Shown here: positions 6,526 through 24,269 of the stretch, piece by piece | Position numbering within the stretch: the stretch's first letter is position 1 | Layout: each line of letters begins with the position of its first letter | NCBI GenBank assembly: GCA_025617745.1 | Contig: CM046863.1 | Location: forward strand, 13,644,875-13,708,874 | Source of the DNA: Heliocidaris erythrogramma | Lineage: Eukaryota > Echinodermata > Echinoidea > Camarodonta > Echinometridae | DNA: 64,000 nt | Reading direction: 5' to 3' | Made by a program: the position numbers and the translations under genes | Notes under the pieces: model-generated | Databases searched by the model: none | Told to the model about the DNA's origin: nothing | The model's input: the letters and a program-made list of their open reading frames with translations, nothing else

Positions 6526-7039
6526 TACTTCAGTCCTATCAATTATGATATTTAATTATTATATATCTTATCAGAATGTAAGCAAAAATGCGAATGTATT
6601 GTATTGTCCCAGGAACTTTTATTTCATAATATTCAAGACAACTAGTTAACAGACAAGAGCATCAAAAAGAAGAAAAAATACATAAATTTCAGTATGCGGG
6701 ACTGGAACAGTGGAAGTACAATAAAAAAGGAATAAGGAGGAAATGGCTGGAAAAACTACTTTATAGTTTACTGTTAGTGTTATTTAAGATTGCAAAAGTA
6801 CAATGACATAGGAATCAGGAACAAGTTATTCAAGATCATACTTACTTTTTTTCAAACGTGCAGAATAGCTCAAACTTGATGCATTTCCACCATCAATTTT
6901 TCGGAATTGTGTGCAAATATCATATCTCCTGATCGCGCGATAATTTTAAGTATATGTCGGTCGAGATGTTAATGAATATTAATGACGTCTCGGAGAATGA
7001 TCATGTGCGCATGCGCCAGGGACAAAAAGTTCGTAGGAA
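6526..7039. other. Non-coding, nothing recognised
   Basis: AT-rich unique-looking sequence without long open frames or repeats. Confidence 0.5.
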
Positions 7040-8425
7040 AAAAAAATTCGCGACCCGGACGCGTCTTTTTTTTTGTTGTAACCAAGCCTAGGCAGATTTC
7101 GCATTTTTTCATGAATATTCATGACGCAGGGTCGGGAAACGGTTCCGATTGGTCTTCATGAAAGCACGGTCGGTGGGGGAAAAAAGTCCCTGGCCTGCAC
7201 GTACGTACGCATATTACGTGCAGCGCTATATTTCGATCGTGTGTGTTCAACGTGTAGGCGCCTAGCCTACGTTCATGTATGTATTGTTTAATTCTCAACA
7301 TATTCACCCCACCTATGCAATGTGACACGTAAAAAATTGGATTGAGCAGTCAATTTCAAAATCAAGTTTTGCATTAATTTATTGCATGTGCGTAGATCTA
7401 ATTTAGTAATTAGCTCTTTTGAGGACACCCTCCTTTTCCGACCAAAATTGACACTGCCACTGGCATTACTCTGAAAATAGGTCTAGGCCTAGGCTATGCG
7501 TATATTGACAATTGCCCATCGTAATGTTCTCCACAAATGAACTTTACAACAATATGCAGAATCAAGACACAGACTCTAGGCTAGGTCTAACAACGTTAGA
7601 GTCTTACTGTTCACGTTAGAAATTAAATTTCCTTGCATGCACACTGTAATTAGCACTTGCACCCTGCTCCTGTAACGCACATTGCCCTGAGTTAGAAGAA
7701 CTGCAAGAGTCTTCAGGACTGAAAGAAGCAGACTACTACTAACGTTCCAATAGTACTAACGTTAGTACCAAGAAAACAAATTATTTTGGTGACCTTTTAG
7801 CTGATGAAAACAAAGTGCGTAACTAGTTATTGTAGGGTAGACCTAAAATCATCTAGGCCTAGGCCCTAGATGTAGATTTACCCCCATCATCAATCATTTA
7901 CTAGTACTGATTAGATCTAGGTCTAACTCATCATGCTCATTGACCTTAAAATAACATTCACTTAATCTAAACTTAACTGAAATTGAAAATTGTAACAAAA
8001 TTGGTCTAGTTAGAGTAGCCTAGATCTAGGCCTATAGTAGTTAGAGTCTTGGCTAGACATACCTGCAAATTTGATGATATCACACAATCACATTCCGATT
8101 CCATTTTGAAGTTGGGTCTACCACACGTCTATTATTAGGCCAGCATTTTGAGGGATACGTGGAGGCAATTCTAACTCTTATATTAAGATCTAACTTAGAT
8201 CGATAATAGATTCAGTGCAAAAACGTAGGCGAGGCGCCTACACGTTGAACACATACGATCATAATATGCGTACGTGCGTGCAGGCCAGGGACTTTTTTCC
8301 CCCACCGGCGACCGTGCTTTCATGAAGACCAATCGGAACCGTTTCCCGACCCTGCGTCATGAATATTCATGAAAAATGCGAAATCTGCCTAGGCTTGGTT
8401 ACAAAAAAAAAATACGCGACCCGGA
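7040..8425. mobile_element. Foldback element with terminal inverted repeats of about 210 bp
   Basis: Left arm (about 7060-7268) and right arm (about 8222-8410) are reverse complements sharing GTAACCAAGCCTAGGCAGAT, CATGAATATTCATGACGCAG, GAAACGGTTCCGATTGG and CTTCATGAAAGCACGGTCG. Both ends carry a T-rich tract, and the direct word CGCGACCCGGAC lies just outside each arm; it may be a target duplication of unusual length. The 950-bp interior is rich in CTAGGCCTAG-like words and has no long open frame. This is a non-autonomous DNA element. Confidence 0.8.
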
Positions 8426-8454
8426 CGGATTGGTTTATGCACGCTTGGGCTAAA

Positions 8455-8925
8455 ACCACTTGGTCTAATTTCCATATGGGCTACCTTCATTCGGGCTAAA
8501 CCCTTATGGTCCACTCTTCATTTGGTCTAATTTTCACTTGGTCTAATAACCAGAAGGTCTAATGACCACTTGGGCTAATTATCACTTGGTCTAATTATAA
8601 TTTGGTCTAAATACCATTTCGTCTACTTTATTTTGGTGTTACTTGGTCTACTACCAATTCGTCTAGTGTCAGTTTCTCTAATTCCCAGTCAGTCTAAAAC
8701 TAGTTGGTCTACAGGCATTTCGTCTAAAGTCCACTTGGTCTAGTATCCATTTGGTCTACATGGCATTTATATGGTCTAATATGCAGTTGGTCTAACTTTC
8801 ATTTAGTCCATTTTCCATTAAGTCTAATTGTCAATTGGTCTAAATGCCAGTTTGTTTAAACATCACTTTTTCTAATTATCACTAAGGCTAATTGCCTGTT
8901 GGGCTATTCCCTTTTCGTCTACGCA
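8455..8925 (+). repeat. Degenerate 17-bp tandem array, CACTTGGTCTAATTATC type
   Basis: About 25 successive units of roughly 16-18 bp share the core TTGGTCTAA with variants TTCGTCTA, TTGGGCTAA and TTAGTCTAA. The same units reappear in reverse complement at 23180-23515, on the far side of the palindrome arrays. The units are too degenerate for a young satellite and resemble subterminal repeats of large DNA transposons. No coding function is likely. Confidence 0.85.
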
Positions 8926-9059
8926 CCCACCATCAACACTGTGCGTCATTTTGTTGGCCGTCCCAGAAATGACAGTAAGAAAAAAAAATCAGCTAAATTT
9001 AAAAGTCAATTACCAAGGTTTGAAAAACTTTTGACAGCTATCAAAACATATTATGTGAG

Positions 9060-9965
9060 CAATATGTGGGTAAAATATGGGCTATCCCAAATGGATCGCA
9101 CACGCGAATGCCCATATGGGTCCCATAAGATTTTGCACCCAAGGCCCATGTGGGTTCCATATGGGCCATCCCAGATGGCCAATATGGGTTCGTTCTGGGG
9201 CCCATCTGGTATAAATATGGGCAATATGTGGGTAAAATATGGGCTCGCCCATATGGGTCGCACACGGGAATGCCCATATGGGTCCCATAAGATTTTGCAC
9301 CCAAGGCCCATGTGGGTTCCATATGGGCCATCCAAGATGGCCAATATGGGTTCGGTCTGGGGCCCATCTGGGTATAAATATGGGAAAGAAGTGGGTAAAA
9401 TATGGGCTATCCCATATGAGTATTATCTGTGGGTTCCCATATGGGTCCCACATGGGAATGCCCATATGGGCCCCATAAGATTTTGCACCCAATTCCCATG
9501 TGGGTCCCATATGGGCCATCCCAGATGGCCTATACGGGTTCAGCCTGGGGCCCATCTGGGTATAAATGTGGGCAATATGTGGGTAAAATATGGGCTCGCC
9601 CATATGGGTCGCACACGGGAATGCCCATATGGGTCCCACATGGGAATGCCCATATAAGCCCCATAAGATTTTGCACCCAAGGCACATATGGGGCCCATAA
9701 GGGCCGTCCAATATGGCTAATATGGGTTAAGCCTGGGTCCAATTTGGGTATAAATGTGGGCAATACGTTGGCAAAATATGGGCTATCCCATATGGGTCCC
9801 ACACTGGAATGCCCATATGGGGCCCCATAATATTTTGCACACAGGGCCCATAGGGGACCCATATGGGTTTAATCTGGGGCCCATCTGGGTAATATGTGGG
9901 AACAGTATGATTGATCCCATATATTGCGTTCCCCCATGGGCCCCTCATGGGCCCGACATAATTTA
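9060..9965. repeat. Palindrome array I: CCCATATGGG words in units of about 180 bp
   Basis: Dense self-complementary decamers CCCATATGGG, with CCCACATGGG, CCCAGATGGG and GGGCCCAT variants, are spaced mostly 10-25 bp. The phrase AAGATTTTGCACCC recurs near 9127, 9289, 9478, 9666 and (diverged) 9830, giving a unit of about 160-190 bp. Because the words are palindromic and multiples of the frame stay open, long open frames appear on both strands with Met-Gly-Pro-Tyr-like repeats; they are by-products. The array would form many hairpins as single strand. Confidence 0.9.
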
Positions 9966-11032
9966 GCAACTGAGATTTACAATATGCCTATATTGGTCTA
10001 TTCAATCGATACAAGGGGACAACTCCTAAATCGTTTTTAAGGAAAGACATGGGACACAAAGACTACTTGATCATCATGCAATCATCATCAGCCTCTCACC
10101 ACAGCTGTGCCAGTACAAAAAACAACAACATTAAAAAGAAAAATGGGGGTACTTGAAATATAAGTTGCCGGTGACCTGCCATGCAACCTGTGTACATACA
10201 TGTATGTCACAAATAATGAGCATTGCCTGTGGAATTTTGTCTTGAAAACAGACCTGTTTGCGCGGTCAACAAATATCTGAGCATGCCTATATATGAATTC
10301 CCCCCACCAAACTCATTCACGCTGACATGTATTCACTTATTGCTACATACCTAATAAATTTACTCCAGAGTGGTAATTAGATTATGAAAGTAAACCTTCT
10401 TTATTATAAATATGCATCTATAAATGATATTTTCATCAAAAATCACTGGGGAATTTTACTTTTAAGTTGGGAATAGGCAACGACATACATGTATTTTATA
10501 TTGATCTGCAAATATATTTTCACTTATTCGTACATGCCCATGAAATTTACTCCATAGCAGTAATTAGATTTCCATGAATCTAATTCATGCAAACATGTAT
10601 TCACTTTGGTGTTACTTGGTCTACTACCAATTCGTCTAGTGTCAGTTTCTCTAATTCCCAGTCAGTCTAAAACTAGTTGGTCTACAGGCATTTCGTCTAA
10701 AGTCCACTTGGTCTAGTATCCATTTGGTCTACATGGCATTTATATGGTCTAATATGCAGTTGGTCTAACTTTCATTTAGTCCATTTTCCATTAAGTCTAA
10801 TTGTCAATTGGTCTAAATGCCAGTTTGTTTAAACATCACTTTTTCTAATTATCACTAAGGCTAATTGCCTGTTGGGCTATTCCCTTTTCGTCTACGCACC
10901 CACCATCAACACGGTGCGTCATTTTGTTGGCCGTCCCAGAAATGTCAGTAAGGAAAAAAAATCAGCTAAATTTAAAAGTCAATTACCAAGGTTTGAAAAA
11001 GTTTTGACAGCTATCAAAACATATTATGTGAG

Positions 11033-11938
11033 CAATATGTGGGTAAAATATGGGCTATCCCAAATGGATCGCACACGCGAATGCCCATATGGGTCCCATA
11101 AGATTTTGCACCCAAGGCCCATGTGGGTTCCATATGGGCCATCCCAGATGGCCAATATGGGTTCGTTCTGGGGCCCATCTGGTATAAATATGGGCAATAT
11201 GTGGGTAAAATATGGGCTCGCCCATATGGGTCGCACACGGGAATGCCCATATGGGTCCCATAAGATTTTGCACCCAAGGCCCATGTGGGTTCCATATGGG
11301 CCATCCAAGATGGCCAATATGGGTTCGGTCTGGGGCCCATCTAGGTATAAATATGGGAAAGAAGTGGGTAAAATATGGGCTATCCCATATGAGTATTATC
11401 TGTGGGTTCCCATATGGGTCCCACATGGGAATGCCCATATGGGCCCCATAAGATTTTGCACCCAATTCCCATGTGGGTCCCATATGGGCCATCCCAGATG
11501 GCCTATACGGGTTCAGCCTGGGGCCCATCTGGGTATAAATGTGGGCAATATGTGGGTAAAATATGGGCTCGCCCATATGGGTCGCACACGGGAATGCCCA
11601 TATGGGTCCCACATGGGAATGCCCATATAAGCCCCATAAGATTTTGCACCCAAGGCACATATGGGGCCCATAAGGGCCGTCCCATATGGCTAATATGGGT
11701 TAAGCCTGGGTCCAATTTGGGTATAAATGTGGGAAATACGTTGGAAAAATATGGGCTATCCCATATGGGTCCCACCCTGGAATGCCCATATGGGGCCCCA
11801 TAATATTTTGCACACGGGGCCCATAGGGGACCCATATGGGTTTAATCTGGGGCCCATCTGGGTAATATGTGGGAACAGTATGATTGATCCCATATATTGC
11901 GTTCCCCATGGGCCCCTCATGGGCCCGACATAATTTAG
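11033..11938. repeat. Palindrome array I, second copy
   Basis: Copy of 9060-9965 in the second 1973-bp unit, with scattered substitutions such as ATCTAGG for ATCTGGG near 11341. Same internal organisation. It is followed by an AT-rich tail (11940-12577) matching 9967-10604. Confidence 0.9.
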
Positions 11939-12577
11939 CAACTGAGATTTACAATATGCCTATATTGGTCTATTCAATCGATACAAGGGGACAACTCCTA
12001 AATCGTTTTTAAGACATGGGACACAAAGACTACTTGATCATCATGCAGTCATCATCAGCCTCTCACCACAGCTGTGCCAGTACAAAAAACAACAACATTA
12101 AAAAGAAAAATGGGGGTACTTGAAATATAAGTTGCCGGTGACCTGCCATGCAACCTGTGTACATACATGTATGTCACAAATAATGAGCATTGCCTGTGGA
12201 ATTTTGTCTTGAAAACAGACCTGTTTGCGCGGTCAACAAATATCTGAGCATGCCTATATATGAAGTACCCCCACCAAACTCATTCACGCTGACATGTATT
12301 CACTTATTGCTACATACCTAATAAATTTACTCCAGAGTGGTAATTAGATTATGAAAGTAAACCTTCTTTATTATAAATATGCATCTATAAATGATATTTT
12401 CATCAAACGAAAATCACTGGGGAATTTTACTTTTAAGTTGGGAATAGGCAACGACATACATGTATTTTATATTGATCTGCAAATATATTTTCACTTATTC
12501 GTACATGCCCATGAAATTTACTCCATAGCAGTAATTAGATTTCCATGAAGTACCCCATCAATCCCATTCATGCAAAC

Positions 12578-13013
12578 ATGTATTCACTTATTTCTACATA
12601 GTTTTACCCATTAAATAGTAAGTAATCATATTTCAAAGTAAACCATTTTAATATTAGAAATTAATACTGTGTAGTTGGTAAGGAATTAATCCAAGTCCTC
12701 GAGAATAGGACAAAAAGCTTTCTTTCCCCGGTTGCTTGCTTACAAAAATACGCTAACTTGCTTTCTTAGCTGTCAGGTAAACTATCAATCAATTAACCAC
12801 CATAATATTCATCTTACAAAAAGAACTGGAGATTTGTCATTTTAAGCTTGTGGATATGCAACGACATACATTATTGAAGTAAATTAAGCTTAGGAGTCTA
12901 GCATTAAAAATGATAATGGAATTTTGATGGAATCATTTCTCATACAATTCATTTTGTGACACATCGCATGGTATTGGAAGTGTGTTTATATACTGTAAGT
13001 ACAATTTGTAAAG
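12578..13013. other. Non-coding, nothing recognised
   Basis: AT-rich sequence after the tandem duplication; no open frame, RNA or repeat stands out. Confidence 0.45.
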
Positions 13014-13585
13014 AACAGCCTCGGCAACTCAAAAAAAAAAAAACATTGTGAAAATAATAAATAATGGAATATTGTATTGGTTAGGTAGTTTATATTACGG
13101 CTCCTTCTCACTACTGAAAAAATATGGATCTGTTGGGAAGGGTCGACTCCGGATCTATAGCTTGCCACTACATGTGTCATGGTTAAGGCGATACCCCGAA
13201 ACAATTTCACAATATCTATTTTTAGCCATTAGTTTCTTTCGTAACGTGCTGGCTAGTGGGGTTCAATGTCAAGCCGCATGAGTTTAGAAATGCATATATC
13301 AATATCCTTGGCAACTCTCTTAAAACAAACTTAAAAGAAAACACATTGTGAAAATAATAAATAATGGAATATTGTATTGGTTAGGTAGTTTATATCACGG
13401 CTCCTTCTCACTATTGAAAACAGATATGCATCTGTTGGGAAGGGTCGACTCCGCATCTATAGCTTGCCGCTACCAGTGGCATGGTTAAGGCGATACCCCG
13501 AAACATTTCACAATATCCATTTTTCGCCATTAGTTCCTTCGTAACGTGCATTTCAGTGTCAAGTCGCATGAGTTCAGATTGTTCT
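13014..13585 (+). repeat. Two-copy tandem repeat of about 300 bp
   Basis: 13040-13290 matches 13345-13585: both carry ATAATAAATAATGGAATATT, TTGGTTAGGTAGTTTATAT, GGGAAGGGTCGACTCCG and TGGTTAAGGCGATACCCCG. Several substitutions and indels separate them. Open frames in the copies are not conserved, so it is not coding. Confidence 0.85.
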
Positions 13586-15620
13586 TTCAGAAATGCATGT
13601 ATCAAATCACAAAGAGCTGAGTAAGTAATATTTTAATACCCAAAAGCCCAGTTGGCGAATTCATCAAATAACAGAACGGCGGTCAGAAGTAGAATGAATT
13701 GAAATACAATAGACTTTCTCCTCCAGTTGTAATCTCTAGGCCATCACTGTATATAAATTAGCCTCCTCCTGCACCATGCATACATTAAATATGATTAATA
13801 TGCAGTATTTGTTATTACAATGACATCATGCTATGCAAAAGATAAGGTTGTTTCCATCTGTCACTTCCTTATAATTATTCAAATTACTGGTCATTATCTA
13901 ATGAAGCTGCGGCTTTTGTTCATCAGTTGATTATGCATTCCCCCATAGTTGAGATGCATACACGACCAGGGCATATTGAAAGGAGTCCTCCCGGCCTTCA
14001 TAGTATTCATAGTAAAAATTTATTCAGTTCCGAGTACTGGAAACATTTTTCCTGCAGGTACTACTTATGGTGCCACCTTAACAGCTTCATCCAATTTGGA
14101 TATAATCTTAAAACGTGCCAGAAGTCTTCTTCATTTTGTCCATCTAAAAAAAAAATACGTTTCTTTTTTTTTAGTTTTTTATACTGCTTATGCTGTTTCC
14201 TAGTACCGTTGTTGTTTTTCTCGTCTATTTGCTGGATCTGAAACGACAGAGTGAGATATATGTACATATAACAAATTTCACAGAAAAATATTACACTAGC
14301 ATATTTACAATATTAAACTTTTGTAGATAGTGAAATTTGCAAATATGCTACAATATTTTATTACCAATGCAGATATTTAAAAAAAAGCAAATCTAAATGT
14401 TAGCTCTTTCTCTCTCTTTCTCTCTCCCCTCCCCTCCCCTTCCCCCTCTCTCACTCTCTCTCTCTCTATATATACATGTATATATAAACCACATATACGA
14501 GACATCATTCATGCCGTTTCCATAAAATTTAAAAAAAATCAAAGAGAGTCGGGTCCCCCCTCAAAAAAAATAAATAAATAAAAATAAAAGGAAAAGGAAA
14601 AAAGAAAACATATAGAAATATGGACAATATTGACCCATGCAAAGTAAGGGAAATAACAAGAAAAAAAGCAGAAAATGAAATGGTGTATGGAATAAAGCTA
14701 CAACACTGATACAGAAATAAGGGGAGGGGAGAGAAATAGAGTGCAAGAAAAGCAACTTTATAAACATATCAAGATCATCTGTATATTTTGAGAATGGTAG
14801 TAATATGGCACATCAGTTATTCATTTATGGCAGTTGCTCCTCACATGAAGCCAACAATAACATTATTATGACATAATAAACTATGACATTTATCTTGTCT
14901 TGAAATTGAAGCTGCATAATTATGTGCTCGATACACACTTGCCTAGTGAAATGATTTTGATTTCTTAGCCCATATACATGGAAAGCCAGACCACATAGTT
15001 AAACCAAGGAGTTATAAACAGACCAGTACGGAATGTATACTATCACGCGGTAGGTGAACGATATGACCCAGGCATACTTCTTTCCTCTTGGGCCTTGCAA
15101 CTTAAACAATGGAGTATTAAGATAAGGTAAACGGGTAACTCAACTAAATTAACATTTCTCTAACAATTCACTGATAATAATCCCACAAAAGACAGTCATG
15201 CATCAGAACGTTTCACTGGATGGTACATCTCAGGCTATACATGTACTTTTAAATTAATAAACAATATCAGAGAGAAAATGGAATTTAGAAAGAATCGATA
15301 AGATATAATGCAGCTTACCTTCAAAGCAGGAAGGTGGACATGTAGTGCTTCCTTCGTAGGTAGTAGCAATGGAATGCCGTTTCCTCAAAAGATGGTGCAG
15401 GTTTTGAAAAGTGGACTCAACCATTTGTACTAGGGGTCAGTGCACATGGGGGTTGGGAGGTGCTTTCATTTTCTCTTATGTACTACTCACATTCTTTAGG
15501 TCTGCATTGATTAATTACCGTTTGATAAGTTAGGGCCAGTATAATGACAACAAAATATGAATTCAGTTCGCAAATGTGTACAATATAGATCTTTAATAGT
15601 ATGCTGATCAGTTTTTGTCA
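13586..15620. other. Non-coding stretch with CT microsatellite
   Basis: No gene seen. A (CT)n/(CCCCT)n tract lies at about 14405-14470, followed by a (TA)n stretch. Open frames around 14000-14260 and 14561-14767 are low-complexity by-products of A- and T-rich sequence. Confidence 0.5.
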
Positions 15621-15624
15621 GAAG

Positions 15625-15990
15625 AATTTACCCCTCAAGAATTTGGGTTTACCCAACTTATGATTTACACCTCTAACCCATATGGTTTCGCCCAGATTAT
15701 TCCAATAATGATACCCACATTGGGGTTTACATATTTTAAAATATGGGTTTGCCCAGTTCATATCAAAATGACGTCCACTTTGACTTTGGAATGTCATACT
15801 CATATGGACTTGCCCAGCTTACTCCCATATGGGCATTGACTTTTGTTTCCCAGACGGGTTTGCCCAGCTTATTCCCATATGATACCCATATAGGTATTGA
15901 TATATGTTTCCCCAGATGGAATTGCCCATGCAGCTTATTTACCATGTGATATCCATATGGGCATTCATATGACTTTCCCATAGGGTTTGC
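15625..15990. repeat. Palindrome array II, left part
   Basis: Units of about 60 bp carry GGGTTTGCCCAGCTTATTCC, CCCATATGATACCCATATGG and related words. The left edge is degenerate (CCCATATGGTTTCGCCCAG). The array breaks off at about 15990 in GGGTTTGCCCTGCTTGATTG and resumes at about 20160, so 4.2 kb of retroelement sequence was inserted into it. Confidence 0.85.
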
Positions 15991-16204
15991 CCTGCTTGAT
16001 TGATTGATTTGATTTATTTACCACCAACAACGTTTAATTACAATACATTTTTTTTACATACAATGATATTTACATATAATGAAGAAAATCATTGGTTGGT
16101 AAAAGGGGCCAGATAATAGCACATGTGCTGGTCGAGCCTGACCCACAACAACAACCAAAAAACAAACAAGTATTTTGGTAAAGTTCAATTAATACCCAAA
16201 TTAA
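15991..16204 (-). mobile_element. Probable retroelement 3' tail remnant
   Basis: Read on the minus strand, the segment ends in AAATAAATCAAATCAATCAA, a simple-repeat tail of the kind seen at the 3' ends of many CR1/L2-type LINEs. A similar string occurs near 32265. No coding part remains. The assignment rests on the tail only. Confidence 0.4.
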
Positions 16205-17095
16205 AAATAATAATAGTTAACAATGGAGTCAAAAGGGGCCTGAGCTTTCGATCCTAGCAGAATCTTCGTCAGAGGCAAAAAGACAAACATAAAAAGCAAG
16301 ACAAGCATATATATAGACTACAGACACAAAACAGTATACATGTAACAGGAACTGTAAGGGAGGGGATGGGGACACAAAACAATGGGAACAAAAGGGGAGT
16401 GTGGGGAGTCAAAAGCCATGAGTCAAGTAGGTGTGGAGGGGGATTAAAGCAAACACAAAGGCGTGGAGATGCAAGGACAGTAATGAGCCCCAAGCTCAAG
16501 TGTGGGTAACCTGTGGAAGCAAAGGATAAATGGGGAGGCAACATCAAACAGGATAAGGAACAATGCAAAGACAAGAGAAAGGAATAAGTACTGCACAAGT
16601 CCAGTACAGAGGAGTAGTAGGGCAGAAAATAAAGAGGGAGTCGAGTTCTCAAACACCATGTGCATAATATATGGCATAATTATAAAGTAAAGTGTGGTGA
16701 AAAAATATATATTTGCTATCTACTGTATACAAGACTATAAGATGTAAGGCATAATATATACTGAAGAATACATACATGTGCATATAAAGTCTGTAATAAA
16801 TGTGTCTAAACCCAACGAGCAGGTAAAATGCAAATAAAATATATGTGTATATATATATGCATGGGAGGTGTAAGGGTGCTTACAGTGAGAAATATGTAAT
16901 AATGTAAGGAAGGTGAGTAAAAAGATGTATTAATCATTTCCCTCCTGGATGTTGAGTCCATGAGGTTGGATGGTGCGAAGTCGTCTCATCCAGTACTTCT
17001 CTCTGCTGGTTCGGACTATGTCGGGACGGGTTCCTAAAGATTCAATGCCCTGTAGAATCATATCGGTGATGGAATGGTTAGGAATGGTTAGTTAA
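16205..17095 (-). mobile_element. Penelope-like element, 3' end with GIY-YIG-type C-terminus
   Basis: On the minus strand a short coding tail (16930-17079) is followed by a 3' untranslated region ending near 16205. That end carries the phrase GACGAAGATTCTGCTAGGAT then GAAAGCTCAGGCCCC, which I associate with Penelope-like 3' ends. The copy is severely 5'-truncated, as is usual for retroelements. It sits back to back with the LINE and inside the palindrome array. Confidence 0.6.
16930..17079 (-). pseudogene. C-terminal piece of a Penelope-like GIY-YIG endonuclease
   Basis: About 49 codons end at a stop at 16930-16932. The readable motifs are NHSITDMILQGIESL, then REKYWMRRLRTIQPHGLN before the stop. 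The pattern (R/S)REKYWM.RL.TI.P.GLN is typical of the C-terminus of Penelope-like GIY-YIG endonucleases, which nick target DNA. The catalytic GIY and YIG motifs themselves are missing, so the fragment is inactive. Confidence 0.65.
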
Positions 17096-17236
17096 CAATG
17101 AAGTACAAAAAGTAAAAAGTAATGATGTTAAATACATTTCTTGTACATATACAGACTATTTACATAAACGTTTTTATTTATGATTTACTCAGCAAGTGTG
17201 TCGTAACAGAATTCCGAAACCTACATCTAGACCTGG

Positions 17237-18660
17237 TTAATTTGATTTTAAAAGGTAATCTAATTTCAAAAATTCACTACCAATGAAAGACAATGAAAAT
17301 TGACCTTGCGTCGTTCTGAATTTTGGTAGACGCAACTGTCCACTTTCCTTTTGCCTTGTGGAGTGCCTATACTGTATAGTGTCACAGTAATTTACTAAAG
17401 TATGAGGCAAGTTGTTATTATACAAATCAAACATGAAAGTAGAAATTGACAAGTCATGCAAATCATATACATTAAGGATTCGCAAACTTTGGAACAAAGG
17501 AGTCGTATGAGTTCTCCATTCACTGAATGTTATAGCACGGACCGCCATTTTCTGTGAATACAATATGCTTCTTAGGCTAGTCTTATAAGTGCTTCCCCAC
17601 ACTTCTATTCCGTAGGTAATGTGTGGTTGTATAAAGGCTTTATATAGCAGTATTAAAGTGCGCCTGGGTACAAAATGTCGCAACCTAAATATCACTCCAA
17701 CTTTCTTTCTTATGCACTGATTTACAAAACAAATGTGATTATTCCAAGACAGATGTTTATCAATGTTGATTCCAACAAAAGTGGCAACATCAACTTCTTT
17801 GATTTCCTCACCAGCTATTTTCAATTTACCATTCATACCTATTTTTTCCCTCCTGCTACTTATTAGCATGAAATTAGTTTTCATTGAGTTTATTGTAAGT
17901 TTATTGGCTATGCACCAGTTTCGTATCTTCTGTATGTTGTCATTCACTTCATCTGCATCAATTTCGACCTGGTCAGCTTTAAAAGTATGGAAAAGGTTCG
18001 AATCGTCGGCAAACAACCGAAACTTGAAATAATCAGTTACTGAAGGCAAATCATTTATGTAGATCAAAAATAAAGCTGGCCCTAGTACTGATCCTTGTGG
18101 AACACCACATTTTATCTCTTTCTTTTTGGATAATGTTTGTCCACATTGAACAAACTGAAATCTGTTACTAAGATAGTTTTTTTTTAATTCAAGTGGTAAC
18201 CCTCGAATGCCGTAATTGGAGAGTTTACCTAAAAGTATATCATGATTAATGGTGTCGAAAGCTTTCTTTAAATCAATGAAAACACCAAGGGTAACTTTCC
18301 CCTCATCTATAGACTTCAAAATTGCATTTATCAAATTGATTAATGACAATTTGGTACTATATTTCTTCTGAAAACCGTACTGATGGTAATAGAAAGCATC
18401 ATTTGTTTATAAAAACTGTATTAATCTGATATTTATTATTTTTTGAAATATTTTACCTAAGACAGGTAGAACCGATATGGGTCTATAGTTACCTGGATCC
18501 TCTCTCGAGCCTTTTTTATGAAGAAGAGTAACCTTTGCAATTTTCATTTCATCCGGAACCTTCCCAGTCTCTAATGATAAGTTAAAAATATATGCCAGTG
18601 GATGTGATATATGAGGAACACTATCTTTAATTAATTTTCCTGGAATATTATCGTGACCAC
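17237..18660 (-). pseudogene. LINE reverse transcriptase domain with an in-frame stop
   Basis: Motifs in order: NYRPISVLPVLGKIFQ, then a TAA stop at 18407-18409, then YGFQKKYST, FIDLKKAFDTINHD, CGVPQGSVLGPALF, the catalytic FADDSNLFH and TINSMKTNFML. A C-terminal segment with LLYKAFIQPHITYGIEVWG follows to the stop at 17237. It would copy its RNA at a nicked chromosomal site. 370 codons are open downstream of the stop, so inactivation is moderately recent. Confidence 0.88.
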
Positions 18661-19110
18661 AAGCTTTTTTGTATCTAGTAACAATAATTGAGTTCTAACT
18701 TCGACCGCAGTTATTGGTTTCCAAAATAGAGAATGCTCAGTATTCTGTCCCAAATATTCACCATATGTTATAGCTCCATTTGGCAATTCATCAGCTAAAT
18801 TTGGTCCAATGTTCACAAAGAAGTCATTAAATTCATTAACAATGTCAGACACAGATGTCAGTTGCTCACATTTTCCATGAACCTGCTTGACAAGTCTGTC
18901 CACCTCAACACTTCCACCTGATCTATTTTTACCAGCTAACAACTCATTGATTATAGCCCATGTCTTATTTGTGTCATTCTTATTATTATTTAACAAATTG
19001 CAGTAGTAATTCCTTTTCGCATTTTTTAGTATAGTGGTCAGTACATTTCTATACTTTTTTGTACTTATCCACAAGATCCTGACGATGATCTGATTTAATA
19101 ACTTTGACAT
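18661..19110 (-). pseudogene. LINE linker between endonuclease and RT, frameshifted
   Basis: This piece reads LKNAKRNYYCNLLNNNKND and TWAIINELL, then NDFFVNIGPNLA, the usual region between endonuclease and RT in LINE ORF2 proteins. It overlaps the endonuclease frame near 19050-19110 and loses frame again at an A-rich run near 18672, after which the RT continues in another frame. Confidence 0.7.
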
Positions 19111-20066
19111 ACATTGTGTGTTTCACACGAATCGATCTCATGATCCCTCGAGATATCCATGGCTTCTTAGCAGCCTTTCTCTTTCCTAACTGCTTAGTAA
19201 CCAACGGTGCATGTTTATTACATATGTTCGAGAAAGAAATGCAAAAATTAGAATAAGCTGTGTTGATATCTTTTGATTTAAATACTGTTACCCAGTTAAA
19301 AGTACCAAGATCTTCTTTGAAAGTTCCTATATCATATCTTTTATAACATCTATACCGAATTACTTTTTTATTAGACTTCACTTTCGATATGTTCTTGAAA
19401 ATTGCAAAAACTGGGAAATGATCAGACACATCCGATTGTATTATACCTGAGTGAATTTCAGATGTGTTGATATTTGAATATATGTGATCTAATAATGTAG
19501 AGGAATCTTTTGTTACCCTTGTTGGTGATTGAATCAATTGATCCAATCCTATGCATTGCAATGATGTGAGAAACTCCTCGACAGTGTCATCTTTACCCAA
19601 AGAATTAATATTGAAGTCGCCCAGAAGAGCACACTTATGTTGATCTACTTTATATTTTTCTAACACACTCAACACACCATTTTGAAATTCCTTCACATTA
19701 GTATTAGGTTTTCTATAGATTATCCCAACTGTAACTTTTATATCATCTGTAATATTGATTTCTAACCAAAAGGGATTCTGCATGATTAATGCTATATTCC
19801 AAACACCTGTACTTTAGTGATGTACTGACGTATGCTCCAACTCCCCCTCCTCTTGAATCGCTGGGGCGACAATTTACTTCAAGAGAATATCCTTCTATAC
19901 CGAATATTGACTTGTTGGTCACATTACATACCTCAGACATACCAATAACATCAAACCTTGTATGAATACAATCTTCAAACAATAATTTAAAAGCTTCAAA
20001 CTTTTTAGACAAAGATCGAACATTAATGTGAGATAACTTTAAGGAATTCGTTCTATCAAATTTAAG
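19049..20066 (-). pseudogene. LINE endonuclease domain, frameshifted
   Basis: The first part (about 19743-20066) reads FDVIGMSEVC and RGGGVGAYVS. After a frame change near 19760 the second part (to 19049) reads VGIIYRKPNTN, LLGDFNIN, STLLDHIYSN and SDHFPVFAIF. These are the catalytic Glu, GDFN and SDH boxes of the APE endonuclease that nicks target DNA to prime reverse transcription. The catalytic residues survive, but the frame change prevents a joined protein. Confidence 0.8.
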
Positions 20067-20159
20067 AACATTATCGAATTAATTTGGGGTCAATTTATGA
20101 TAAAAATGTGTATTATTCATTTTAAGGAGGCTTTAAAAAAAGCCTCCACACGGGGAGGT

Positions 20160-23150
20160 GGAATGATACATTATTCCCACATGATACCCATATGGGTATT
20201 TACATATGTTTCCCAGATGGGTTTGCCCAGCATATTCCCATATGATACCCATGTGGCATTTGCATGTCTTTCCCATATTGGTTTTCCCAGTTTATTCCCA
20301 TGTAATACCAATATGGGCATTTACATGTCATTTCCATATCGGTTTGCCCAGTTTATTCCCATGTAATACCCATATGGGCATTTACATGTCAAACCAATAT
20401 CGGTTTCCCCAGCTTATTCCAATTATGATATGGGCATTTACATATGTTTCCCAGAAGGGTTTGCCCAGCATACTCCCATATGATACCCATATGGGTATTG
20501 AAATGTGTTTCCCAGATGGGTTTGCCCAGCTTATTCCGACATGATACCCATATGGGCGCTTACATATGTTTCCCAGATGGGTTTGCCCAGCTTATTCCCA
20601 TATGATACCCATATGGGCATTTGAATATGTTTCACAAATGGGCTTGCCCAGCTTATTTCCATATGATACCCATATGGGCATTTACATGTCATTCCGAAAT
20701 CGGTTTGCCCAGTTTATTCCCATGTAATACCCATATGGGCATTTACATGTCATTTCCATATCGGTTTGCCCAGTTTATTCCCATATAATACCCATATGGG
20801 CATTTACATGTCATTCCCATATCGGTTTGCCCAGTTTATTCCCATATGATACCCATTTGGGCAAATATATATGTTTCCCAGATGGGTTTGCCCAGCTTAC
20901 TCCCATGTGATACCCATATGGGCATTTACATGTCATTCCCATATCGGTTTGCCCAGTTTATTCCCATATAATACCCATATGGGCATTTACATGTCATTCC
21001 CATATCGGTTTGCCCATTTTATTCCCATATGATACCCATTTGGGCAAATATATATGTTTCCCAGATGGGTTTGCCCAGTTTATTCCCATATGATACCCAT
21101 TTGGGCAAAAATATATGTTTCCCAGAGGGGTTTGCCCAGCTTATTGCCATATGATACCCATTTGGGCATATATATATATATATGTTTCCCAGATGGGTAT
21201 GCCCAACTTACCCTCATGTGATACCCATATGGGCATTTACATGTCTTTCCCTTTTGTGTTTGCCTAGCATATTCCCATATGATAACCATTTGGGCAAATA
21301 TATATGTTTCCCAGATGGGTTTGCCCAGCTTACTCCCATGTGATACCCATATGGGCATTTACATGTCATTCCCATATCGGTTTGCCCAGTTTATTCCCAT
21401 GTAATACCCATATGGGCATTTACATGTCTTTCCCATATTGGTTTGCCCAGTTTATTCCCATGTAATACCCATATGGGCATTTACATGTCATTCCCATATC
21501 GGTTTACCCAGTTTATTCCAAAGTAATACCCATATCGGCATTAACAGATGTTTCCCAGATGGGTTTGCCCAGCTTATTTCCATATGATACCCATTCGGGC
21601 AAATATATATGTTTCCAAGATGGGTCTGCCCAGCTTATTTCCATATGATACCCTATGGGCAAATATATATGTTTCCCAGATGGGTTTGCGCAGCTTACTC
21701 CCATGTGATACCCATTTGGGCATTTACAAATATTTCCCATATGGTTTTGCCCATTTTATTCCCATAGGATGCCCATTTGGGCAAATATATATGTTTCCCA
21801 GATGGGTTTGCCCAGCTTATTTCCATATGATACCCATATGGGCATTTACATGTCATTCCGAAATCGGTTTGCCCAGCTTATTCCCATGTAATACCCATAT
21901 GGGCATTTGCATGTTATTACCATACCAGTTTGCCCAGTTTATTCCCATATGATAACCATTTGGGCAAATATATGTTTCCCAGATGGGTTTGCCCAGCTTA
22001 TTCCCATGTGATACCCATATGGGCATTTACATGTCATTCCCATATCGGTTTGCCCAGTTTATTCCCATATAATACCCATATGGGCATTTACATGTCATTC
22101 CCATATCGGTTTGCCCAGTTTATTCCCATATGATACCCATTTGGGCAAATATATATGTTTCCCAGATGGGTTTGCCCAGCTTATTCCCATATGATACCCA
22201 TTTGGGCAAAAATATATGTTTCCCAGAGGGGTTTGCCCAGCTTATTGCCATATGATACCCATTTGGGCATATATATATATATATATATGTTTCCCAGATG
22301 GGTATGCCCAGCTTACCCTCATGTGATACCCATATGGGCATTTACATGTCTTTCCCTTTTGTGTTTGCCTAGCATATTCCCATATGATACCCATTTGGGC
22401 AAATATATATGTTTCCCAGATGGGTTTGCCCAGCTTACTCCCATGTGATACCCATATGGGCATTTACATGTCATTCCCATATCGGTTTGCCCAGTTTATT
22501 CCCATGTAATACCCATATGGGCATTTACATGTCTTTCCCATATTGGTTTGCCCAGTTTATTCCCATGTAATACCCATATGGGCATTTACATGTCATTCCC
22601 ATATAGGTTTACCCAGTTTATTCCAAAGTAATACCCATATCGGCATTAACAGATGTTTCCCAGATGGGTTTGCCCAGCTTATTTCCATATGATACCCATT
22701 CGGGCAAATATATATGTTTCCAAGATGGGTCTGCCCAGCTTATTTCCATATGATACCCTATGGGCAAATATATATGTTTCCCAGATGGGTTTGCGCAGCT
22801 TATTCCCATATGATACCCATATGGGCATTTGAATATGTTTCACAGATGGGCTTGCCTAGCTTATTCCCATATGATACCCATATGGGCATTAACAGATGTT
22901 TCCCAGATGGGTTTGCCCAGCTTATTTCCATATGATACCCATATGGGCATTTACATTTCATTCCCATATGGGTTTTCCCAGTCTTGTCCCATATGGTTCC
23001 CATATGGGCTGGCCCAAGTAGATCACAAAATGGGTTAACCCATATGGGTCCCACAAGGGATACATATGGGATTTATATGGGTTCCCTTTTGCCCAGATGG
23101 CCCGGATGGGCCGGATGATGCCCATATGGGCCCCACATGGGCCTGTTACG
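20160..23150. repeat. Palindrome array II, main part (unit about 62 bp)
   Basis: About 47 units, each roughly TTTGCCCAG, TTATTCCCAT, ATGATACCCATATGGGCATT, TACATGTCATTCC or ATGTTTCCCAGATGGG. Words are built on C-C-C-A-N-N-T-G-G-G. The last 180 bp (22970-23150) change character to CCCATATGGGTCCC, GGGCCCCACATGGGCC and CCCAGATGGCCCGGATGGGC, which resembles array I rather than the 62-bp unit. Open frames on both strands are by-products of the repeat period. Confidence 0.9.
20826..22800 (+). repeat. 1.1-kb higher-order duplication inside palindrome array II
   Basis: Sequence 20826 to about 21700 recurs at about 21927-22800 with an offset near 1101 bp. The rare variants TTTCCCAGAGGGGTTTGCCC, the (TA)n-containing unit near 21170/22270, and CCAAGATGGGTCTGCCC are shared by both. 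This marks a segmental duplication within the array, not independent drift of units. Confidence 0.85.
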
Positions 23151-23179
23151 ATACTTGCCAGAAGAATAAATATTAATTG

Positions 23180-23515
23180 CACCAAATGGTCATTGGACTA
23201 TAATAAAATTAGGATAAGTAGCCTAACTGGTTATTAGACGAATTGGATATAAGACCAAATGGTCATTAGACCATATGACAGTTAGACTAAATGATAAGTA
23301 GCCCAACTGGTTACTAGACTAAAGGGAATTGGACCAAATGATAGGTAGACCAAATGGTATTAGCCAAAGCAGGTGTAGGCCGAATGGATACGAGACTATG
23401 TGGCTTGTAGACAAAATGACTGTTAGAGTATTTGGAAATAGACGAAGTGAAAATTAGCCGAAGCTAAAATTAGCCCAAATGGGTTTTAGACTAAATGGGG
23501 TTAGCCAAACTGTGT
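23180..23515 (-). repeat. Degenerate 17-bp array in inverted orientation
   Basis: Units such as CATTAGACCAAATGG, GACTAAATGATAAGTAGCCC and TTAGACGAATTGG are reverse complements of the TTGGTCTAA family at 8455-8925. Orientation is opposite, and both arrays lie on the outer side of the palindrome arrays. The coiled-coil exon starts only about 25 bp beyond its right end. Confidence 0.88.
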
Positions 23516-23538
23516 ATTATTGACAGAATTTTTGACAG

Positions 23539-24087
23539 AAGAATTAAAGGGAAAAGAGCAGAGAGAGAAGGCTGCAATGCAGCAAGTAGAAGAACTGAAA
23601 GATAGAAAGGAGGAAGCAAGACATAAAGATGAAATGCGTAAAATTGGAGCAGATACGGTTCACATTGCGGGTGCATCATCTGACGATGATAGGAAACAAA
23701 ACCACGCAGATGAGGTGTACAAACAACGAGAGCTGGAATTGAATAATGAATTGAAAACAAAATATGAGCACATTCAAACATTGAAAGAACGACTAGGACA
23801 GGTAGAGCAGGAAACTGAACAACTTAAAAGCGAAATGGAGATACAACAAAGAAGATTAGAAGCAAAACAGCAGAGTGAGAAGGCTGCAATGCAGCAAGTA
23901 GAAGAACTGAAAAAGGAAAAGGAGGAGGCAAGACTTAGAGAGGGTAAACTTATACGGGAATTGGTAAAAGAGAACTGGAAACTGAGGGAAATGATTCAAT
24001 TAGAAAGCGAGATACGATCAGAGGAGCTGAAAAGGAATGCAGCACAGAGGCATCCCTTGATACAAAGGATAAGACAGGCCACCAAAG
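23539..24087 (+). CDS. Coiled-coil exon of a Death-domain gene
   Basis: About 182 codons rich in Glu, Lys, Gln and Arg with heptad spacing, for example EKAAMQQVEELK and LEIQ-type turns, predict a long coiled coil for oligomerisation. The heptad block AMQQVEELK occurs twice (DNA words at about 23572 and 23884 nearly identical), so the exon grew by internal duplication. A acidic break (GASSDDDRKQNHADE) lies between. The acceptor is probably TTGACAG|AA at 23538 and the donor is AAAG|GTAATA at 24087, giving phase 1 at both ends. Upstream exons are not visible; the left neighbour is the 17-bp array. No ATG start is evident, so the gene's 5' end is outside this view or lost. Confidence 0.7.
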
Positions 24088-24269
24088 GTAATAACAATTA
24101 TTATTACTGTTTTTCTTTTTTTTTTAATTGTACTTGAAGTCCAACAAATCTGGGCTTAGGTTGTCACTACCTTGTGGGAAACAAAGTACTTATAATGTTA
24201 TTCTCTTAGTATAAGTTGTAAATAGGCCTACAGAACAATAGGTGCTTAAATATAGGATGTACTAGTATA

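Follow-up and report, generated by a model that had tools for sequence, protein, structure and literature searches.

The block at positions 8432 to 23519 of the window (the whole 64,000-nucleotide stretch of Heliocidaris erythrogramma DNA analysed here) is an ordinary nesting of two mobile families and no new giant element. It is very probably one copy of a family we call F17 in which an unrelated and nearly complete CACTA-like element stands in place of the middle, with the addition of a retrotransposon and a tandem duplication.

Organization of the block

Units of the TTGGTCTAA type run forward on the plus strand at 8445–8922 (27 matches with two or fewer mismatches and one reverse match) and as the reverse complement at 23177–23509 (16 reverse, four forward). 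These counts exceed those in 200 first-order Markov random sequences, which gave a forward mean of 2.0 and maximum of 8 for the left array and, for the right array, a reverse mean of 1.0 and maximum of 4 with a forward maximum of 3. The opposed orientation of the outer arrays reported in the initial annotation is thus borne out, while the 17-bp unit given there has to be corrected: autocorrelation peaks at 16 bp, followed by its multiples. Blocks of 88–92 nt in the left and right outer arrays are complementary at 73–74%. Directly inside both outer arrays lie, as was also described at first, arrays of the CCCATATGGG type, the left at ~9059–9960 with a higher order of 162/188 bp and the right at 20171–23009 with a period of 61 bp and 46.4 copies (TRF), its onset being placed by eye at ~15640. 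A search for phage records resembling the array found none.

At approximately 15997–20165 a non-LTR retrotransposon on the minus strand interrupts the right inner array, the unit of which resumes across it. Its reading frames are of endonuclease-like and reverse-transcriptase type (PF00078, E 3.5e-25; an Exo_endo_phos_2 match falls below the curated cut-off). This insert had been left out of the initial annotation. On the left, the sequence at 8632–10604 recurs on the plus strand at 10605–12577. This tandem duplicate, offset by 1,973 bp, includes a portion of each of the two left arrays. Of the 40 window ORFs of at least 110 aa, 17 were scanned, including 15 that lie within the block or at its margin, and none showed a DNA-transposase domain, in agreement with the earlier remark that no transposase is seen there.

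The outer arrays are the ends of F17

The left F17 end (8432–9055, plus strand) comprises the terminus GGTTTATGCACGCTTGG, the 16-bp array and a short non-array spacer; flanking sequences diverge at 8432 and the family match stops at ~9055. The right end, with terminus GGTACACTGTCGCTTGG when read inwards, occupies 23150–23519 (minus strand) and consists of 16-bp units in reverse complement. In fuller copies the right-end array runs on to CCAAGCGACAGTGTACC, and alignment with these copies indicates that the window copy is without ~127–143 bp there; 38 other scored places begin at position 173–179 of the 581-position query and stop at 534 or 540. The terminal consensus of the family is GGTTTATG / GGTACACT, with 5'-GG termini, and its left (~620 bp) and right (~500 bp) ends are ~65–80% alike in local alignments.

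Genome-wide, the exact left terminus occurs 369 times and the right terminus, matched exactly to a pattern that allows two bases at each of two positions, 433 times; reversed control patterns gave 0 in both searches. The left terminus is present within three mismatches in 28 of 30 F17 left-end loci. Between C1 and the start of C5 there are 83 left termini, of which 58 have a properly ordered and oriented right terminus no more than 40 kb away and 25 are partnerless in the compared lists; the paired copies measure 1.0–9.8 kb with a median of 2.9 kb; aberrant pairs over the same range comprise two on opposite strands and one in the wrong order. Twelve end pairs were read for target duplications, and of these five have a perfect duplication of 8 bp, one a perfect duplication of 9 bp and two a duplication equal at 7/8, the remaining four being imperfect (two) or unreadable (two). 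One of the perfect 8-bp duplications adjoins a truncated left end. Sharp common edges and target duplications uphold the earlier proposal that the outer arrays are transposon ends, and they rule out a pair of satellites without mobility.

Apart from the window and C10 pair, all 54 of the other end loci sampled match part of a 1.7-kb F17 middle, the reference for which was taken from loci L028 and L062; none of the four window and C10 loci does. This middle is dispensable, since a 1,043-bp copy on C2 (L106) that is without it has a perfect 8-bp duplication. F17 is abundant and is an apparently non-autonomous cut-and-paste DNA transposon with imperfect long terminal inverted repeats of 16-bp tandem units, and it behaves like a foldback transposon, having inverted tandem-repeat ends, target duplications and a replaceable middle.

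Larger F17 copies were considered as autonomous partners and rejected. Four copies on C1–C4 exceed 7 kb, and 3-kb parts read in three of them gave no F17-tied transposase gene: one copy contains a retrotransposon whose Pfam domains include RNase H and integrase, another a microsatellite-rich tract (by eye), and the third the F17 middle plus DNA of no assigned identity.

The inner arrays belong to a second, CACTA-like family

The inner family has termini of the CCCAGGTA type (left CCCAGGTAGCAAG, right CTGTTACCTGGG, with single-base variants in two of ten copies). The left terminus occurs 127 times exactly in the genome (control 0), and a 2-bp A/T target duplication is present at all ten pairs read. 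Judged from these CCC-starting termini and 2-bp duplications, the family resembles animal CACTA elements; no transposase gene was linked to it.

In the window the left part of the inner element, including its array, lies at 9056–10604 (plus strand) and is 5'-truncated: copies at C20 and C21, where the family occurs without F17 arrays, align with it, and the left-terminus core CAGGTAGCAAGCCC is absent from the window at two or fewer mismatches. Its non-coding middle and the beginning of the right array follow the tandem duplicate at 12578–15996 (plus strand), of which 12600–14800 is high-copy genome-wide (346 first-look candidates, the best 40 of which were scored). Past the retrotransposon, the right array continues over 20166–22986 (plus strand) and leads into a conserved right terminal domain at 22987–23149 (plus strand) that, compared with the right ends read at ten copies, stops short of its final five bases (CTGGG) and recurs at 98–99% in 38 other places among the best 40 scored. 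By coordinate arithmetic, ~7.95 kb of inner element remains in the window once the retrotransposon and the duplicated segment are subtracted, which fits the size of the family: of 34 right ends, 25 have a left terminus as partner, at a median of 7.8 kb, and nine are partnerless in the compared lists.

Origin of the composite

A locus on C10 has the same left flank as the window (99.3% of ungapped columns) and is therefore a sister of the window block and no independent insertion. It retains both F17 ends, is without the 1,973-bp tandem duplicate, and has the entire block between one imperfectly duplicated target, the left copy of which in the window, GACGGATT (8424–8431), is equal at 7/8 positions to AACGGATT directly past the right terminus at C10. 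An assembly error may lie behind the tandem duplication or the duplicated locus. The left junction between F17 and the inner element is spanned at three of 40 scored places and the right junction at two of 40, all in the window or C10. Scoring was limited to the 40 best candidates of each DNA search, so more junction copies are possible. No sign of movement of the composite as one unit was found.

We infer that a trans-acting transposase would bind the repeated units at both F17 ends, synapse them and insert the element with an 8-bp stagger. In place of the usual 1.7-kb middle stands the nearly complete inner CACTA-like copy, which may have arrived through repair of a break or gap, or through an insertion with later deletions, since the junctions lack both inner termini and the entire F17 middle. 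The non-LTR retrotransposon inserted into the right inner array, and the tandem duplication arose on the left side.

That the inner element simply transposed into an F17 copy is conceivable and, in our estimate, somewhat improbable. Both families are mobile and make target duplications, and the C2 copy shows that F17 without its middle exists; however, the inner copy in the window has neither its left terminus nor the last five bases of its right terminus, no 2-bp duplication is readable at the junctions, and the F17 middle is absent on both sides. Nested transposition would thus need an insertion and two deletions, or a middle-less target and two losses of element ends. That the block is one giant transposon with two nested pairs of arrays, as the initial annotation proposed from their mirror order, is highly improbable even though a single target duplication surrounds the whole block at C10: each pair of arrays has its own termini, its own duplication length and more than 100 separate copies, none of the 37 inner left termini on C1–C5 lies within 30 kb of any of the 97 F17 left termini there, and the junctions are confined, among scored places, to the window and C10. 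The initial annotation itself took independent occurrence of the two repeat families as a refutation, and on C1–C5 they do occur independently. What stands of that proposal is that the outer arrays are the inverted repetitive ends of one family; the inner arrays come from another.

Candidate transposases for F17

No transposase gene tied to F17 was found, and our analysis indicates that a Merlin or a Mutator transposase probably mobilises the family. A Merlin (IS1595-type) enzyme is a plausible mover, at a confidence a little short of an even balance. Merlin elements share with F17 their conserved 5'-GG termini and target duplications of 8 or 9 bp (excerpt of PMC8101967), and the genome contains 52 IS1595-type DDE matches, many within long open frames. 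Against this, none of the 19 such matches on C1–C5 has an exact F17 left terminus within 40 kb, and stretches of 601 and 801 bases 3' of the domain at two Merlin loci contain no F17-like terminus (the best candidate had six mismatches in 17, and shuffles of one stretch gave four to eight).

A Mutator-like (MULE) transposase, as in the foldback element Muta1, is a possibility that we hold more tentatively. Muta1 has 8- or 9-bp duplications, 145-bp inverted repeats and derivatives with foreign middles (excerpt of PMC5225508), and there are 31 MULE-domain matches in the genome; however, none of the nine on C1–C5 has an exact F17 left terminus within that distance of 40 kb, and three loci read for 1.5 kb on each side of the domain are without F17 termini. 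Duplication length, 8 bp in seven of eight clear F17 cases, fails to discriminate. Apparent 15-bp arrays at one MULE locus, L083, were on reading taken as chance repeats.

The KDZ-type transposons named in the initial annotation have five domain matches in the genome. For two of these, at one locus on C1, the closest exact F17 left terminus is 1.6 Mb away, and those on C15 and C9 lie beyond the F17 positions compared, which reach into C6. The target duplication of Zisupton is 8 bp long, as in F17 (excerpt of PMC12730594).

Relation to known elements

The foldback-type systems closest to F17 include Muta1, Tm1, Tetris and the sea urchin TU elements. Inverted ends built of tandem units are described for Muta1 of Aedes, a MULE with 12-bp units and 3–4-bp spacers (PMC5225508), Tm1 of Meloidogyne with ~14-bp units (PMC3169594) and Tetris of Drosophila virilis with ~220-bp units (PMC4079207, which also cites a sea urchin foldback report), each source being used in excerpt. 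Like these elements, F17 has 8–10-bp duplications, variable or replaceable middles and many non-autonomous copies; unlike them, it has 16-bp units of another sequence and ends of unequal length. It differs from Merlin in that its inverted ends are tandem arrays, which do not figure in the excerpted Merlin description (PMC8101967).

The inner family shares its CCC-starting termini and 2-bp duplications with SmTRC1 and the Tribolium and Aedes TRC elements of the animal CACTA/TRC group, and its left terminus resembles the Tribolium TRC terminus CCCTAGTAGCACC (excerpt of PMC1636069). Unlike that group it carries kilobase-long CCCATATGGG arrays at both ends. Neither family is named in the literature searched; since the search did not extend to Repbase or Dfam, we do not claim the families as unpublished.

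Implications

The four-array mirror looks designed and arises from two unrelated mobile families with tandem-array ends, which is a warning that such symmetry need not mean one giant element. Both families are abundant and apparently belong to different superfamilies, as their 8-bp and 2-bp duplications indicate, and both have tandem arrays at their ends. This agrees with the proposal, made for Galileo, that repeated binding sites confer transposase specificity (excerpt of PMC3688188). F17 could be a Merlin-superfamily element with independently evolved foldback ends that is able to carry foreign middle DNA, a reading we consider rather unlikely; if it is true, Merlin would join Mutator and P/Galileo as lineages convergent on multi-site ends. 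Tandem-ended families of this kind could also seed satellite DNA, as has been demonstrated for Tetris (excerpt of PMC4079207).

Layout of the block

Two arrays of 16-bp units face each other at 8445–8922 and 23177–23509, with 27 forward units on the left and 16 reverse units on the right, where random sequences reached at most 8 and 4. The initial annotation had placed these outer arrays in opposite orientation, which holds, with a 17-bp unit, which does not. It had also set a second pair inside them, and CCCATATGGG-type arrays do lie at about 9059–9960 and, interrupted, at about 15640–23009. The right inner array is split by a minus-strand non-LTR retrotransposon (RVT_1, E 3.5e-25), and 8632–10604 is tandemly repeated at 10605–12577. 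In agreement with the lack of a transposase noted earlier, no DNA-transposase domain was found in the 17 scanned ORFs of the 40 listed for the window. Separately, positions 1–1400 (tandem part 366–968) carry a third array type, with ACTGGTTT/CTAATGGTTT units in both orientations and a 115/221-bp higher order; this may be one end of a further transposon family that bears arrays.

F17, the outer repeat family

Searching the genome (1.06 Gb, 26 contigs) with 8455–9060 gave 1,875 first-look candidates, and all of the best 40, which were scored, span nearly the whole query at 91–100% identity. The right-end query gave 1,844 candidates, and the best 40 scored include further short array pieces. With up to three mismatches allowed, the left terminus GGTTTATGCACGCTTGG is present in 28 of 30 left-end loci (L021 and L022 have changed left termini) and the right terminus CCAAGCGACAGTGTACC in 27 of 30 right-end loci (missing from L039 in the window, L040 on C10, and L041). 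Flanks beyond the left terminus differ, except at a few loci sharing them (L009/L010, L018/L019, L025/L026). Across the genome the exact left terminus occurs 369 times and the right terminus 433 times (pattern with two two-fold positions); reversed control patterns gave 0 for each. The terminal 60-base consensuses of both ends have in common a GGT start and a CGCTTGG core, followed by the 16-bp units. Pairing covered C1 up to the beginning of C5, where 83 left termini are listed; 58 of these have a right terminus within 40 kb in correct order and strand, giving sizes of 1,043 to 9,802 bp (median 2,909), and 25 have no partner. Two neighbours on the opposite strand and one in the wrong order also turned up. 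At L079 (C12:40976300-40977400) two right ends face each other, with about 230 bp between termini.

Target duplications were read at 12 end pairs, leaving out the window copy, whose right end is lost, and L019/L049, whose flank is the same as that of L018/L048. Perfect 8-bp duplications occur at five (L016/L074, L077/L066, L022/L052, L106, and L075/L044, where it adjoins a truncated left end) and a perfect 9-bp duplication at L028/L062. L012/L073 and the C10 copy show 7/8 matches, L018/L048 (differing T-run lengths) and L029/L054 imperfect duplications, and L076/L061 and L078/L079 were unreadable, having no left terminus in the stretch read. The outer-array idea of the initial annotation, with the common edges and target-site duplications it proposed to look for, is thus borne out by a family of hundreds of copies.

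Leaving aside the window/C10 pair, each of the 54 other end loci sampled matches some or all of the 1.7-kb F17 middle (reference L028/L062), which has no match in the four end loci of that pair. The longest open frame in this middle, of 149 codons, is of low complexity. L106, a 1,043-bp copy, lacks the middle yet has its perfect duplication.

Candidate transposases for F17

The many short units at both F17 ends would serve as transposase sites; in Galileo, transposase-domain sites were found within such tandem repeats and binding specificity was suggested (PMC3688188). A Merlin transposase fits, since Merlin elements have 5'-GG ends and 8–9-bp duplications, as F17 does (PMC8101967), and the genome holds 52 Merlin domain matches; however, the 19 on C1–C5 are all more than 40 kb from any exact F17 left terminus, and stretches behind two Merlin domains have no F17 terminus. 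A Mutator-like transposase fits as well, the architecture of Mutator-like foldback elements being similar to that of F17 (PMC5225508, PMC3169594), but of 31 MULE matches in the genome the nine on C1–C5 all lie beyond 40 kb, and three MULE loci read lack an F17 terminus. KDZ domains number five, with neither of two on C1–C5 within that distance; Zisupton makes 8-bp duplications, as F17 does (PMC12730594). Because the scan used the exact 22-base left terminus and an autonomous partner may differ in those bases, MULE, Merlin and KDZ are all possible sources. Among the Merlin-type domains on C1, C3, C7, C10, C11, C13 and C15, several loci score identically and the open frames are long, which suggests recently active families.

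The inner family

The block middle (12600–14800) is high-copy (346 candidates, best 40 scored), and copies of it on C20 and C21 are flanked by CCCATATGGG arrays, have no F17 arrays and show a left terminus, CCCAGGTAGCAAG. CCCAGGTAGCAAG followed by CCCATATGGG occurs exactly 127 times in the genome (control 0). A search with the last 163 bases of the inner element in the window gave 189 candidates, and 38 further places among those scored match at 98–99%. Pairing covered the 34 of these right ends on C1–C16; four on C18 and C21 were dropped, the left-terminus list ending in C16. A same-strand left terminus lies upstream of 25 and is absent from nine, and the 25 paired copies measure 4.1–11.0 kb (median 7.8 kb). 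Among 32 listed middle copies (C1–C15), 16 have the exact same-strand left terminus upstream and one has that terminus nearby in the opposite orientation. In ten copies, selected because both ends are present, a 2-bp A/T duplication lies outside CCCAGGTAGCAAG...CTGTTACCTGGG every time (AT, TT, TT, TT, TT, AT, TA, AT, AA, AA); the right end of two of these copies differs by one base. In animals, CACTA relatives carry CCC-starting inverted ends and, like the inner family, 2-bp target duplications, and a Tribolium end, CCCTAGTAGCACC, resembles CCCAGGTAGCAAG (PMC1636069); by its ends and duplications the family appears CACTA-like. At L071 (reverse strand, about 8300–8670 of the reversed locus), GCTCCGCCGACAATT-type units of about 15 bp form an array that directly abuts an inner-family copy on C20.

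The sister locus on C10

C10:54179000-54200435 (minus strand) matches 6938–23519 at 90–98.5% in separate pieces, apart from indels. With gapped columns set aside, the flanks to the left of 8432 are 99.3% identical, so this is either a misplaced allele or a duplicated copy of the window locus and does not represent a separate insertion. Neither the tandem duplication nor window 16084–17518 is present there, and at the site of window 14804 it has an extra 7.6-kb insert that the window lacks, with (T)CCCTTACAAAAAT as inverted ends. It keeps the F17 right terminus GACCAAGCTAGTACC, a few bases shorter, and the bases after it read AACGGATT, compared with GACGGATT on the left side of 8432; the outer element therefore most likely inserted as a single unit at a single target, and the window copy was cut at 23519 afterwards. 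A coiled-coil-like open frame (23505–24137, 210 codons, no Pfam match) starts about where the F17 right end breaks off. In the C10 right flank (about 54179800-54180400; L069), an array of GATCTCATCATGTCGACATCC-containing units, another array family, lies beside the F17 right end.

Nesting of the two families

The initial annotation suggested that the four arrays might form one giant element, or a paired satellite system, and named independence of the families as a test of the single element, on which that reading fails: on C1–C5, the 37 inner left termini are all more than 30 kb away from each of the 97 F17 left termini. Among the best 40 scored places each, the left junction (9055) is spanned at three (two window tandem copies and C10) and the right junction at two (window and C10).

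The inner left-terminus core was not found in the window (up to two mismatches), the inner copy lacks the last five bases of its right terminus, and no F17 middle remains on either side of it. Insertion of the inner element followed by deletion of its ends is possible. The missing inner termini and missing F17 middle fit repair of a break in F17, which would have copied in the inner element; for other elements with terminal repeats, gap filling has been discussed as a model (PMC8277862). The block is an ordinary nesting of two transposons that also contains a retrotransposon, the mirror-like order of its four arrays is incidental, and F17 and the inner family are new members, each of a known kind of transposon.
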